From: a virus
Reading direction: 5' to 3' (one strand)
Virus record (IMG/VR): IMGVR_UViG_3300043436_001618
Coordinates: 1-45,224 of that record
DNA: 45,224 nucleotides
Positions 6,365-44,242 of the stretch are shown piece by piece. The first letter of the stretch is position 1; each line of letters starts with the position of its first letter. The notes beneath the pieces are model-generated. The model saw nothing but the letters and a program-made list of their open reading frames with translations, was not told where the DNA came from and searched no databases. The translations under genes and the position numbers were made by a program.

Positions 6365-6398
6365 GGGGAGTGTCTTTAAGGACACTCCTTCTTTTCTT
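6365..6398 (+). terminator. Rho-independent terminator after major capsid gene
   Basis: An inverted repeat GGAGTGTC / GACACTCC (6367-6388) with a TTTAAG centre is followed by a T-rich tail (TTCTTTTCTTT). It lies 14 bases past the capsid stop. The stem contains the same GTGTCTT / GACAC core that recurs elsewhere in this genome. Confidence 0.8.
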
Positions 6399-38527: not shown

Positions 38528-38600
38528 ACATCGGGGCAGGACTCGAACCTGCATCTCTATGCAATACTGCACCGCTTTTACCAATTATAGCCACCCGATG
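38528..38600 (-). tRNA. tRNA-like element with aberrant anticodon arm
   Basis: The minus strand has a perfect 7-bp acceptor stem (CATCGGG with CCCGATG) and a perfect T arm (GCAGG, loop TTCGAGT, CCTGC). A D arm with GG in its loop (GCT...AGC) is also present. The central arm does not give the normal 5-bp stem with 7-base loop. The best pairing is GTGCA with TGCAT closing only a GTAT loop. No anticodon with U33 and purine 37 can be placed. CCA is not encoded. It is either a decayed tRNA or a tRNA-like RNA that no longer decodes. Confidence 0.6.
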
Positions 38601-38629
38601 AAAAACCCCCAATGTAGAAACATCGGGGG
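38601..38629 (-). terminator. Strong hairpin with T-tail
   Basis: On the minus strand a 10-bp stem (CCCCCGATGT with ACATTGGGGG, one G-T pair) closes a TTCT loop and is followed by TTTTT. It lies 24 bases past the stop of the amidotransferase fusion gene and ends just before the tRNA-like element. Either it terminates the long operon here or it acts as an RNA end. Confidence 0.78.
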
Positions 38630-41532: not shown

Positions 41533-41585
41533 TGCTGTTTCATCTTGTTAGAATCATCAGTCAAGGCAACTACCTTGATACAGCA
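41533..41585 (-). ncRNA. Hammerhead ribozyme E (type III, weak stem II)
   Basis: On the minus strand TGCTGTA (cleavage after GUA, between 41579 and 41578) precedes stem I (TCAAGG, loop TAGTTG, CCTTGA). After one-strand continuity comes CTGATGA (41554-41560). Stem II is TTCT-AACA-AGAT with a U-U pair at its base. Then GAAA (41538-41541), whose last A begins ACAGCA, pairing TGCTGT over 6 bp. Stems I and III are perfect; stem II is poor, so activity is uncertain. Confidence 0.6.
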
Positions 41586-41622
41586 GGGAGGTGGGGAAAC
41601 CCCACCATCCCTAAATTAACGA
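41586..41622 (-). other. GC hairpin upstream of ribozyme E
   Basis: GGTGGGG and CCCCACC (7 bp) enclose TTT and lie between the membrane gene stop and ribozyme E. No T-tail follows, so it is not a classical terminator. It may protect the 3' end made by ribozyme cleavage. Confidence 0.45.
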
Positions 41623-41856
41623 TTATTGGATTACGTTCTTCACGAACACCACCACCATGATGCCAATGATGTGAATGAGCCATACCAACTTCACCCTCTC
41701 CAATGGTATCTCACTTTCATCAGCAACCCCCGACACTATCATGCCGAGAATAGTACCAATACATAGAACAATTGTCGCACCCGTATTCTCAAGGAAGAGG
41801 GCAAAGTAAGAAGGCAAAGCGGAAATAATGCAAAGCAAGGCAAGTGATTTTGTCAT
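41623..41856 (-). CDS. Small membrane protein (two to three helices)
   Basis: A 77-aa protein: hydrophobic segments near residues 3-20 (LALLCIISALPSYFALFL), 26-43 (ATIVLCIGTILGMIV) and 57-74 (VWLIHIIGIMVVVFV), with acidic DESEIP between. ATG 41856 follows a strong promoter (TAACTTTG, 17 bases upstream). It may act on the host envelope. Unknown family; a TTG-started version would begin inside the promoter and is not used. Confidence 0.65.
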   Translation of the reverse strand: MTKSLALLCIISALPSYFALFLENTGATIVLCIGTILGMIVSGVADESEIPLERVKLVWLIHIIGIMVVVFVKNVIQ

Positions 41857-41873
41857 GTTGTTCAATTTTAGTT

Positions 41874-41905
41874 CAAAGTTAGTACAATAGTATGATATAT
41901 CCAAA
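41874..41905 (-). promoter_or_regulatory. Full Bacteroidetes promoter (TTTG-N20-TAACTTTG)
   Basis: On the minus strand TTTG (41902-41905) and TAACTTTG (41874-41881), separated by 20 bases, match the -33 and -7 consensus. Transcription should begin about 5-7 bases later, just before the ATG of the membrane gene. The -33 box lies next to the stop of the radC-like gene. Confidence 0.75.
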
Positions 41906-42349
41906 TTAAATTAATCCACCCTCATTAAATGAGAAATAGCTTTCATCTGTGATGATGAGATGGTCAAGCAACTTCATGTCAAAGAATGCACACGCATTCT
42001 TAACCTTCTCAGTGATTGACTTGTCACCCTCTGAAGGCTTGAGATTGCCACTTGGATGGTTGTGGGCAAGGATTATTGAAGAAGAGGCGTTGTTCAATGC
42101 AATGGTCATTACCACCCTTGGGTCTAAAACTGTACCGCTAAACCCACCCGAACTGACTTTGTAGTAACCAACCACGTCATTGGCTCTGTTAAGGCACACC
42201 ATGATGACCTCCTCTGTCCATAAAATTGTGTCAGCATCGAAGATTGAACGCATTACTTCAACCATCTTTTCGGGGCTCGTGATAGTCACCTTGTCACCCT
42301 TGGTAACGCTGACCTTGACCTTAATTTTCGGAAACTTGTACTTTTTCAT
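41906..42349 (-). CDS. radC: RadC-like JAMM-domain protein
   Basis: A 147-aa RadC C-terminal-type domain. NASSSIILAHNHPSGNLKPSEGD holds the JAMM residues (His-x-His, Ser and Asp), with the acidic residue in EVIMVCLNRANDVVG upstream. LLDHLIITDESYFSF is the typical closing strand. RadC proteins have an unproven role in DNA repair; JAMM proteins are metal-dependent isopeptidases. In phage and mobile elements they occur in early operons. Directly follows ribozyme A with a leader of 22 bases after the predicted cut. Confidence 0.87.
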   Translation of the reverse strand: MKKYKFPKIKVKVSVTKGDKVTITSPEKMVEVMRSIFDADTILWTEEVIMVCLNRANDVVGYYKVSSGGFSGTVLDPRVVMTIALNNASSSIILAHNHPSGNLKPSEGDKSITEKVKNACAFFDMKLLDHLIITDESYFSFNEGGLI

Positions 42350-42365
42350 GTGCTAAATTTTAATT

Positions 42366-42431
42366 GGTTAAGAAGGGAGGGGAACTCGTTCCTCGCTCCC
42401 GTTTCGCCCATTGAGGGCTCATCAGTTAACC
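42366..42431 (-). ncRNA. Hammerhead ribozyme A (type I)
   Basis: Minus strand: stem I GGTTAA (42426-42431) with TTAACC (42366-42371); CTGATGA (42419-42425); stem II GCCC, TCAAT, GGGC; GAAA (42402-42405); then a hairpin stem III (CGGGAG ... CTCCC) ending UUC. Predicted cut is between 42372 and 42371. One C-U mismatch at the second stem III pair is unusual; every other position fits the consensus. The TAA stop of the upstream gene lies inside stem I. Confidence 0.78.
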
Positions 42432-42692
42432 TAAGATAACTTTGAACCCCTTGTAAACGCCCTTCTTGTAGGCTTCGGAGGTGAACCCCAATTGACTGCT
42501 CATGAGGTTTGAGGTGATTGATACGTACCTAATTTCAATCTGCCTAAGTACCTCTGAGAAGGTCTTCCCATCCCTCAGAAGGCTTAGAACCTCTCCTTTG
42601 GTATTGGCGTTAGGGTTGTCCCATTTGCCCGTTATTTTGGCTTGGATATGGGCATCAGCAATGGCTTTGATTTGAGGCGTGATTCGTTTCAT
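42426..42692 (-). CDS. Small basic protein, unknown
   Basis: An 88-aa basic protein: PQIKAIADAHIQAKITGKWD, then SLLRDGKTFSEVLRQIEI, which looks like two helix-turn-helix-type helices, and GVYKGFKVILG at the end. Could bind nucleic acid. It begins 22 bases after the predicted cut of ribozyme B and its stop TAA lies in ribozyme A. Confidence 0.6.
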   Translation of the reverse strand: MKRITPQIKAIADAHIQAKITGKWDNPNANTKGEVLSLLRDGKTFSEVLRQIEIRYVSITSNLMSSQLGFTSEAYKKGVYKGFKVILG

Positions 42693-42708
42693 GTGATTGG
42701 TTTTAATT

Positions 42709-42781
42709 GGTTAAGAAGGGCATGAGGGTTATTCGCTTTGCTCATGCCCGTTTCGGGTATTCAACCCATCATCAGTTAACC
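42709..42781 (-). ncRNA. Hammerhead ribozyme B (type I)
   Basis: Minus strand: stem I GGTTAA (42776-42781) with TTAACC (42709-42714); CTGATGA (42769-42775), then an extra T; stem II GGGT, TGAAT, ACCC; GAAA (42751-42754); stem III GGGCATGAG with CTCATGCCC (9 bp); then UUC, cut between 42715 and 42714. It has the same stem III C-U mismatch as A. The TAA stop of the gene at 42776-43006 is in stem I. The bulged T at the base of stem II may weaken it. Confidence 0.72.
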
Positions 42782-43006
42782 TTTGTGATACTTCGACCCA
42801 TCAGCATCGGGGTTGATGCTCATGTCATGCTTGGCTTCTTTAAGCCACTCAGCGTACTCAAGGATGAGGTTGACAAAATTTGTGGCATCATATCCATCAA
42901 CTTGGATGCAGGTGACATCAGCATCGCTCGTGTCTGAGGGGATGCCCTTTGAATCTAAGAACATTTGCATTGTAAGGCTCCAATCGAAATAGTAAGTCTG
43001 TGTCAT
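42776..43006 (-). CDS. Small acidic protein, unknown
   Basis: A 76-aa acidic protein (MTQTYYFDWSLTMQMFLDSK...) with an aromatic N-terminus and an Asp-rich middle (DTSDADVTCIQVDGYD). Begins 4 bases after the 27-aa membrane gene and its stop is part of ribozyme B. Unknown function. Confidence 0.6.
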   Translation of the reverse strand: MTQTYYFDWSLTMQMFLDSKGIPSDTSDADVTCIQVDGYDATNFVNLILEYAEWLKEAKHDMSINPDADGSKYHKG

Positions 43007-43010
43007 GTGA

Positions 43011-43094
43011 TTAAAATTTAATGGTTAAACCTAAGAAGAGAAGAAAGGCAATGATGGTCAAGAGCAAGGCTGTGTTCGGTTCTGAGCGTTTCAT
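43011..43094 (-). CDS. 27-aa single-pass membrane peptide
   Basis: MKRSEPN followed by a hydrophobic run TALLLTIIAFLLFLGLT and a short basic end IKF. A charged N-terminus plus one 17-residue segment is the layout of tiny membrane peptides. It lies between ribozyme C and the next gene, with the operon-typical leader ATTAAAC before its ATG. Confidence is limited by size; the packed spacing argues that it is translated. Confidence 0.55.
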   Translation of the reverse strand: MKRSEPNTALLLTIIAFLLFLGLTIKF

Positions 43095-43149
43095 GTTTAA
43101 TGGTTTTGATGGTTTCTGAGGGTGGCAGTCACGCAGAGCGTGGCTGTTT

Positions 43150-43198
43150 CCGTTTCGTCCTTTGGGACTCATCAGTCAGCGTACACACGCTGAGACGG
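43150..43198 (-). ncRNA. Hammerhead ribozyme C (type III)
   Basis: Minus strand: CCGUC with cut after GUC (43194/43193); stem I TCAGCGT, loop GTGT, ACGCTGA; CTGATGA (43169-43175); stem II GTCC, CAAA, GGAC; GAAA (43153-43156) with ACGG closing stem III. All conserved positions match, with no mismatches in stems. It lies between the amidoligase and the 27-aa gene. Confidence 0.9.
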
Positions 43199-43206
43199 GG
43201 GGAGGT

Positions 43207-43251
43207 GGGGGGAACTCGTGTCTTCGAAGACACTCGCACCCGACACCCCCC
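43207..43251 (-). ncRNA. Structured element G (GUCGGG / GTGTCTT hairpin)
   Basis: On the minus strand GTCGGGT, two bases, GA, then GTGTCTTCGAAGACAC, GA and GTTCCC, the same plan as element F. An outer GGGGGG/CCCCCC pairing is possible. It sits directly 5' of ribozyme C and 3' of the amidoligase stop. Confidence 0.6.
43218..43233. repeat. GTGTCTT..AAGACAC palindrome (perfect)
   Basis: GTGTCTTCGAAGACAC, a perfect 16-base palindrome, forms the inner stem of element G. Confidence 0.7.
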
Positions 43252-43259
43252 TTCGCACT

Positions 43260-44141
43260 CTAAAGGTATTGGCGAATCTCAACCTCAGCAGTACCCTCGA
43301 TGATGAACTTTCGGAACTTTCGAGCCAATTCGAGAATCTCATCCGTCTTGGCATCGTCCCCATTGTACATGGATTTGATGATGGGGCGAATGGTTTTGAG
43401 GAAAGCCTCATGTGACCCGTTCGGCTTGTTCACGCTGAAATCAACCAACTCATGCATCAATTCATACCTGCGAATCATTTGCTTAACGCTCTCGAATTTT
43501 GAAGGTAAGCGGAACTCAAGGCAATTGCCCTTCACCAATGCCACTTGGTACTTATGGTGGCTACCACCTACATGGTTGCCCTCATTATATCCCAACATGG
43601 TTTTGTTGTGCCCACAATAGCTGTTGTTCAACCTCTTGCGGAACAAGGCGTAAAGGATGCCACAATTCACCCTAACCATCCTGCGAATGTCATCCCCGCT
43701 GAATCCCTCAACTGCGATGGTGATATGACCCCCGCACCTCTTATCTGAAGGGCTGAATCTGTCATCAATGATGCGCTCCGCTTTATGCATCATGTCGAAT
43801 ACCTTTGTCCTCCATGTGGATGCAGGGACAAGGGGGAGGATATGGGTCACAGCCTCATATCCGCATGAGCCATCCGTTTCGAATCCGCAAAACAATTCAT
43901 ACTCCTTCACCGCACCACGATGAAGGGAATTTTTTTCGACTTCGAAGCCAATTGTGAACTTTGAACGAAAATCGCCCAAAGATTCAATGAAATTGCCCCT
44001 TTGAGCCTTTTTTAACCCTGCAATATCGCAGTTTTTCGCTCCCCTGCTAAGGTTAATGGGGTCTGGCTTACCATGGTAACGGGTCACTGACCCCCTTGCT
44101 GAATTTCCCGTTAACGTGTACTGAATTCCTTGAACTTGCAT
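43260..44141 (-). CDS. Amidoligase-like protein (PF12224 type)
   Basis: A 293-aa protein. FTIGFEVEKNSL (about 61-72), FETDGSCGYEAVTHILPL (about 85-102), CGGHITIAVEG (about 135-145), an Arg/Asn-rich helix (FRKRLNNSYCGHN) and CLEFRLP (about 207-213) follow the order of motifs in the GS-fold COOH-NH2 ligases, with the acidic, Gly-Gly-His and Glu-Arg positions kept. The predicted reaction is ATP-dependent amide bond formation. An upstream extension to 44192 is rejected since it runs through ribozyme D; ATG 44141 follows it by 23 bases. With the glutaminase/cyclotransferase fusion downstream it may make and trim a gamma-glutamyl-like modification, by analogy with described cassettes. Confidence 0.75.
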   Translation of the reverse strand: MQVQGIQYTLTGNSARGSVTRYHGKPDPINLSRGAKNCDIAGLKKAQRGNFIESLGDFRSKFTIGFEVEKNSLHRGAVKEYELFCGFETDGSCGYEAVTHILPLVPASTWRTKVFDMMHKAERIIDDRFSPSDKRCGGHITIAVEGFSGDDIRRMVRVNCGILYALFRKRLNNSYCGHNKTMLGYNEGNHVGGSHHKYQVALVKGNCLEFRLPSKFESVKQMIRRYELMHELVDFSVNKPNGSHEAFLKTIRPIIKSMYNGDDAKTDEILELARKFRKFIIEGTAEVEIRQYL

Positions 44142-44163
44142 AAAAAAATGGTTTAATGGTTTT

Positions 44164-44212
44164 CCGTTTCGCCCTTTTGGGCTCATCAGCATGAGCGAAC
44201 ACTCATGGACGG
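44164..44212 (-). ncRNA. Hammerhead ribozyme D (type III)
   Basis: Minus strand: CCGUC, cut after GUC (44208/44207); stem I CATGAG, loop TGTTCG, CTCATG; CTGATGA (44183-44189); stem II GCCC, AAAA, GGGC; GAAA (44167-44170) with ACGG closing stem III. All core positions are consensus and stems are perfect. It lies between the 44243 gene and the amidoligase. Confidence 0.92.
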
Positions 44213-44216
44213 GAGC

Positions 44217-44232
44217 GTGTCCTTGAAGACAC
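44217..44232. repeat. GTGTC..GACAC palindrome
   Basis: GTGTCCTTGAAGACAC, with one mismatch, makes a GC-strengthened hairpin (GCGTGTC / GACACGC) between the 44243 stop and ribozyme D, likely at the 3' end of the upstream piece after cleavage. Confidence 0.6.
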
Positions 44233-44242
44233 GCCCTTTGCC

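Follow-up and report, generated by a model that had tools for sequence, protein, structure and literature searches.

Hammerhead ribozymes and tRNA-like elements as candidate processing signals in the spacers of a phage operon

The viral record IMGVR_UViG_3300043436_001618, analysed here over its whole length of 45,224 nucleotides (nt; the window), carries five hammerhead ribozymes in the spacers of one operon on the minus strand, between 41533 and 44212. Three are of type III and two of type I (Table 1). An original prediction, made from the sequence alone, had placed five hammerheads in these spacers and proposed that they divide the operon transcript into per-gene mRNAs; their positions, types and all five cut positions are confirmed. 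Related phages carry hammerheads of both types, or tRNA-like elements, at the same spacers. We propose that these are interchangeable RNA cutting signals, which would split the operon transcript into gene mRNAs with defined, protected ends, and we put the probability of this reading at about 0.7. What the comparison shows directly is the sequences with their structure and covariation, the rules of their position, the hairpins and the replacement of one device by another.

The five hammerheads of the window

The type III core (CUGANGA ... GAAA) and an NUH cut site are present at 44164, 43150 and 41533, as are the three stems, stem III being the open one. The Rfam model Hammerhead_3 (RF00008) finds all three copies, with E-values of 1.6e-7 for site C, 9e-7 for site D and 1e-3 for site E, and all three score under its gathering cut-off of 48.5 bits. 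This cut-off is a database threshold and no structural feature; the structure that defines type III is present at all three sites. A type III copy in the sister genome L004 scores 48.7 bits, above the cut-off. The Rfam check suggested by the original prediction thus recovers the type III sites below threshold but leaves both type I sites unrecognized: sites A and B give 16.1 bits, and to the type III model only. Model R1 scores sites D, C and E at 69.9, 71.1 and 63.9 bits, each sequence being itself part of the model, and model R2 scores sites B and A at 57.4 and 65.1 bits, again with both sequences part of the model. Conserved loops (UGAGUG/UGUGUG and AAAA-like) suggest a tertiary contact between loop I and loop II in type III.

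At 42709 and 42366 the sequence has the type I core and its three stems, of which stem I is the open one, and the minimum-energy fold of each site is exactly the hammerhead fold (z-scores of -3.8 and -2.3). At position 15.2/16.2, adjoining the cut, both have a C.U mismatch in place of a standard pair. C.U is rare at this position, with only two cases in all among 190 distinct type I hammerheads, and nearly all the others pair here. Site B (42709-42781) also has one extra U ahead of stem II. The stems are therefore not perfect at sites A and B, which we regard as the weaker copies, leaving three strong candidates of the five.

Site E had been described as weak in stem II, and its first stem II pair is indeed U.U. 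However, this pair is nonstandard in 15 of 70 type III sequences, a conserved subclass, so that site E gives no evidence of decay. Copies that combine U.U at the base of stem II with a GUA cut site occur at L010:5327, L016:12702, L019:12813 and other loci, as well as at 41533 of the window, mostly after a gene of about 370 amino acids (aa).

Table 1. Features of the window discussed in the text (bits, Rfam scores; energies in kcal/mol)
Feature	Position	Strand	Cut	Score or energy	Remarks
Site D, type III hammerhead	44164-44212	minus	44208/44207	42.6 bits	Spacer between 213-aa and 293-aa genes
Site C, type III hammerhead	43150-43198	minus	43194/43193	45.3 bits	After 293-aa gene
Site B, type I hammerhead	42709-42781	minus	42715/42714		Upstream stop codon overlapped by stem I; 9-bp hairpin as stem III
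Site A, type I hammerhead	42366-42431	minus	42372/42371		C.U mismatch as in site B
Site E, type III hammerhead	41533-41585	minus	41579/41578	31.8 bits	Cut after GUA
Hairpin, stop codon to site D	44213-44236	minus		-15.2, z -4.1
Hairpin, stop codon to site C	43210-43241	minus		-15.8, z -2.1
Hairpin, stop codon to site E	41586-41611	minus		-19.6 (spacer), z -3.2
tRNA-like cloverleaf	38528-38600	minus		39.9 bits (tRNA cut-off 29)	Spacer after 368-aa gene
Terminator-like hairpin with T-run	38606-38629	minus			After 368-aa gene, just before tRNA-like element; the sole true terminator-like site
Cluster c2 gene, 213 aa	44243-44884	minus			Upstream of site D
Cluster c1 gene, 293 aa	43260-44141	minus			Flanked by sites D and C; no match in Pfam or PHROG; conserved; query for relatives
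Cluster c32 gene, 76 aa	42776-43006	minus			Between sites C and B
Cluster c42 gene, 88 aa	42426-42692	minus			Between sites B and A
RadC-like JAB domain gene	41906-42349	minus		4.5e-37 (E-value, PF04002)	After site A
77-aa gene	41623-41856	minus			Before site E

Conservation, placement and the hairpin before the cut

Homology to the 293-aa protein served to gather 67 loci from relatives, hammerheads playing no part in the selection. With a strict descriptor, the window and these loci (∼ 0.95 Mb) yield 136 hammerheads, compared with one in twice as much shuffled sequence (1.9 Mb), which answers the call for a shuffled control made with the original prediction. Hammerheads scoring at least 31 number 135 on the operon strand and none on the opposite strand. 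The same spacers carry hammerheads in relatives, and compensatory changes are strong in both types, as had also been anticipated. The covariation score is 0.755 for 70 type III sequences (0.248 shuffled), in which 12 of 15 pairs have changed on both sides, and 0.624 for 25 type I sequences (0.169 shuffled).

In whole-record searches the matches of each relative sit in one region and on a single strand. Hammerheads concentrate behind four long conserved genes (c1, c2, c3 and c12), with 91 of 201 for these and 17 of 716 for other genes (p = 7e-51); the gene upstream of a site is conserved and the gene downstream is variable. Placement follows the type. A type III hammerhead begins ∼ 30 nt 3' of the stop codon, with 67 nt from cut to AUG and the AUG ∼ 20 nt beyond the ribozyme. 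Type I overlaps the upstream stop codon (median -6), and its cut lies about 22-23 nt from the next AUG. The statement that each element lies between a stop and the next start is accordingly correct for the type III sites of the window and incorrect for both type I sites. The same distances are found in the relatives and in 351 hammerheads found by pattern in other viral contigs. Successive spacers, covariation and fixed placement all fit the predicted division into shorter mRNAs. What did not survive is the accompanying claim that five neighbouring hammerheads are unique: clusters are on record in prophages (PMC3088659), and although this clade reaches at most five per contig, the viral contigs G051 and G057 hold seven and eight, of type I. 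Within a genome, hammerheads can be more alike than between genomes (L030, L031, L022, L052 and L053), which suggests duplication or gene conversion.

These data bear on a different explanation, that the hammerheads are passengers, active or not, which spread by duplication and recombination with cassettes of small accessory genes and have no role in the operon. Near-alike copies within a genome (type III in L030/L031 and L022; a shared stem III in the type I copies of L052/L053) would be expected of passengers, as would the variable neighbouring genes; in L004, at 86% identity, sites C and E enclose another set of genes. However, the conserved genes that precede the sites are the same in diverse relatives, the pairing of the sites is maintained by compensatory change, their distances to stop and start are fixed, and unrelated devices occupy the same place. 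We consider it unlikely that they are passengers.

All 68 records of the elemo phages of Flavobacterium sp. BAL314 carry both hammerhead regions, giving two hammerheads. Their type III hammerhead, which lies at the head of one operon, matches the consensus in full. Their type I hammerhead is intact in elemoA, but its stem II is broken in elemoE, and this difference is a natural control. A 35-aa open reading frame annotated on the opposite strand over the elemo type I hammerhead (L307:3081-3188 and L429:282-389) is probably spurious. No hammerheads were found in MW202828 or in Maribacter phage Panino.

The type III sites have a second feature, on which the original prediction was silent, as it was on the exchange between types I and III and on the tRNA-like elements at the same spacers. 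In nearly all cases a hairpin occupies the ∼ 30 nt from the stop codon to the site. The stretch from stop to type III cut has a mean z-score of -3.8 (98 sites), compared with -0.43 in 432 spacers without a hammerhead. In type I there is no room for an extra hairpin, and stem III is itself a hairpin that ends one base 5' of the cut. With either a separate hairpin (type III) or stem III (type I) in this place, cleavage would leave the upstream mRNA with a hairpin that stops a few bases short of the cut; at site D, the hairpin at 44213-44236 would form its 3' end. Intrinsic terminators were considered for the hairpins at hammerheads and ruled out, as no T-run lies 3' of them.

Many of the type III hairpins contain a 16-bp palindrome, GTGTCTTCAAAGACAC, that is repeated across these genomes. 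In the window it occurs at 6370, 20962, 31176, 39796, 43218, 44217 and 45081, seven exact copies, and the count is nine when one mismatch is allowed (0.02 expected), some of them within genes. Other lineages have their own palindromes, AGTCTGTTCCAACAGACT in L052/L053 and GTGTACACATGTACAC in L057, and in L006, L050, L052, L053, L057 and L060 the repeated palindrome of the respective lineage forms the basis of stem III in type I. The repeat may be an operator, a centromere-like site or a reused RNA hairpin. Its abundance, its presence within genes and its restriction to lineages would suit an explanation in which the hairpins are DNA sites, a lineage palindrome bound by a phage protein near transcription-control genes, with the hammerheads adjacent by coincidence or for termination. 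Yet most of the 32 type III sites that lack the GTGTC palindrome still have an unrelated hairpin (91% of the 32 reach at least -5 kcal/mol, and the mean z is -3.2), and the type I hairpin is the ribozyme's own stem III. DNA sites are in our view a quite improbable account of the hairpins.

tRNA-like elements at the same spacers

The spacer after the 368-aa gene of the window holds a cloverleaf that Rfam matches as tRNA, and ARAGORN reports no tRNA at 38528-38600. A loop of four nt stands where the seven-nt anticodon loop is expected, so the element should not decode. L004 has two such elements in the same place. In relatives this spacer carries hammerheads or minimal tRNA-like elements of ∼ 40 nt, in which an acceptor stem and a T-arm stack over ∼ 12 bp and there is no anticodon arm. 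The T-loop of the minimal elements reads TTCGANT, and the short linker usually contains a D-loop-like ATGGT. The window copy and the minimal elements share an acceptor stem and a T-arm with a TTCRANY loop; neither is a decoding tRNA.

A descriptor that covers minimal and longer tRNA-shaped elements, and demands 11-13 bp of stacked acceptor and T-stem, has 41 matches on the operon strand, two on the opposite strand and one in 5.7 Mb of shuffled strand; 23 distinct matches have a linker of at most 31 nt. The covariation score is 1.244 (0.217 shuffled) for 27 examples, some of which come from other phages. An Rfam search with two minimal elements of L038 gave no match. Minimal elements often lie 3' of the same palindrome hairpin, usually with an AUG ∼ 20-50 nt downstream. 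No further minimal element was found in the window. By analogy with known substrates (see below), the tRNA-like elements are probably cut by host RNase P.

Between the genes of some other phage contigs stand arrays of three to four minimal elements (L395:4292-6623, L342:10740-13298 and L339:1234-1778), beside which no hammerheads occur in the loci read. A pattern scan of viral contigs for the tRNA-like element returned mostly loci of tRNA-rich phages, and none of its 45 short-linker elements (at most 30 nt) has a hammerhead in the same locus.

A census of orthologous spacers, in which exact spacer repeats were entered once, shows the exchange of devices. Behind c1 there are 38 type III hammerheads, one type I and five minimal tRNA-like elements; behind c2, five type III, two type I and three minimal elements; behind c3, 21 type III, one type I, two minimal and three larger tRNA-like elements, the window copy being among the larger; and behind c12, 13 type III and one type I. 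Unrelated cutting devices thus swap at the same spacers, nearly always beside a hairpin, which points to the making of mRNA ends as their job. The comparative evidence that this would be the role of the hammerheads is strong.

The exchange also argues against hammerheads as regulated switches through which a condition such as ligand, salt or temperature would stop the next gene from being translated. Every hammerhead does lie in the 5' leader of a gene, and regulated variants are discussed by Perreault et al. (PMC3088659). Against this, the stems are short and carry no attached aptamer domain, the same upstream gene is kept while the downstream gene changes, and replacement by a tRNA-like element argues for constitutive cutting. 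We regard regulated switching as very improbable.

If the elements are cutting signals, either the RNA itself or host RNase P would cut the spacers, and the long transcript would be divided into short mRNAs. On the upstream one, a stable hairpin would remain a few bases 5' of the new 3' end. The downstream one would begin either in a hairpin that is paired from its first base (type III) or in a short unstructured leader of ∼ 22 nt (type I), and its AUG would lie ∼ 16-25 nt beyond the last structured base. Hammerhead cleavage leaves a 2',3'-cyclic phosphate and a 5'-OH, and such ends, like terminal hairpins, withstand many exonucleases. The likely purpose is that each core gene receives defined, exonuclease-protected mRNA ends without a promoter or terminator in each spacer. 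Actual cleavage, the use of RNase P and mRNA protection are what we infer from sequence comparison. On a broader proposal we are evenly divided: that a tRNA-like element of ∼ 40 nt, not described before and cut by host RNase P, is interchangeable with type I and type III hammerheads in a general punctuation that caps the upstream mRNA with a hairpin, the tRNA-like part serving hammerhead-free phages as well.

Several observations weigh against the reading of these elements as cutting signals. Elements are missing behind c2 or c3 in many relatives, and some relatives lack them altogether, so cutting is not essential everywhere. The type I copies of the window bear their rare mismatch next to the cut and may be reduced in activity. 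Most of the tRNA-like elements lack an encoded RCCA end. The repeat GTGTCTTCAAAGACAC, found genome-wide and in many of the hairpins, could be a DNA site for a binding protein. The share of paired cells (96.3% for type III and 99.3% for type I) leans upward because the descriptor selects pairing, a bias that leaves the shuffle and strand controls unaffected, and several of the relatives are near-duplicates.

Phage context and comparison with known systems

The window is from a phage, as its portal and virion proteins match PHROGs. For one structural protein the closest cultured relatives are Maribacter, Flavobacterium and Cellulophaga phages, and the relatives of the structural proteins suggest a host among the Flavobacteriia. 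Assignment of the host through genome contigs was tried and set aside; the sole fragment, in an Erythrobacter metagenome-assembled genome, is probably a misbinned contig. A 27-aa hydrophobic open frame at 43011-43094 of the minus strand, directly 3' of site C, is possibly a small membrane peptide. Promoters of their own were also considered for the hammerhead spacers and rejected: on this strand and in this region, the only copy of the Bacteroidota-type motif (TTG ... TANNTTTG) precedes the 77-aa gene. That copy, TTG-20-TAACTTTG at 41874-41904 (minus), lies 17 nt 5' of the ATG in a spacer without a hammerhead, and the total number of matches to the motif is not above chance.

A 2017 review (PMC6155905) still counted what hammerheads do in bacteria and phages among the open questions. 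With their two hammerheads, the cultured Flavobacterium elemo phages make the punctuation idea testable. Should the tRNA-like element prove to be an RNase P signal, annotation programs would be overlooking a new and compact kind of processing element. Searches of the open-access literature returned nothing on such tRNA-like elements or on hammerheads in Flavobacterium phages. To the extent that these tools can tell, four things are new: conservation across the clade at orthologous spacers, the coupled hairpin, the exchange of topology and the tRNA-like alternatives.

The type III copies of the window share their core, three stems and GUC/GUA cut site with Hammerhead_3 (RF00008), and the type I copies share topology and core with type I hammerheads (RF00163). 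Unlike RF00163, the type I copies here have a 6-bp stem I, A on both flanks and a pentaloop II that is mostly UNARU. In mitochondrial transcripts, tRNA-shaped elements between genes mark the cut sites (tRNA punctuation); the phage elements differ in lacking an anticodon arm and in alternating with self-cleaving ribozymes.

The nearest precedent for the hammerheads is in prophages, where clusters flank single genes or blocks of genes and splitting of the mRNA has been proposed (Perreault et al., 2011; PMC3088659). A triple array of phage type from A. tumefaciens cleaves in E. coli (PMC3088659). As in that work, several hammerheads flank genes on one phage transcript. In contrast to it, the present sites belong to a clade of flavobacterial-type phages and are orthologous, with a hairpin before the type III cuts, exchange between types I and III, and tRNA-like replacements. 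For the tRNA-like elements, the closest parallel is the model substrates AT1 and pMini, an acceptor stem with a T-stem-loop, which are cleaved by RNase P (PMC11143913). The phage elements likewise stack an acceptor stem on a T-stem with a T-loop. Unlike AT1 and pMini, they are natural, lie in phage spacers and have a D-loop-like AUGGU linker, and they are candidate substrates of RNase P.

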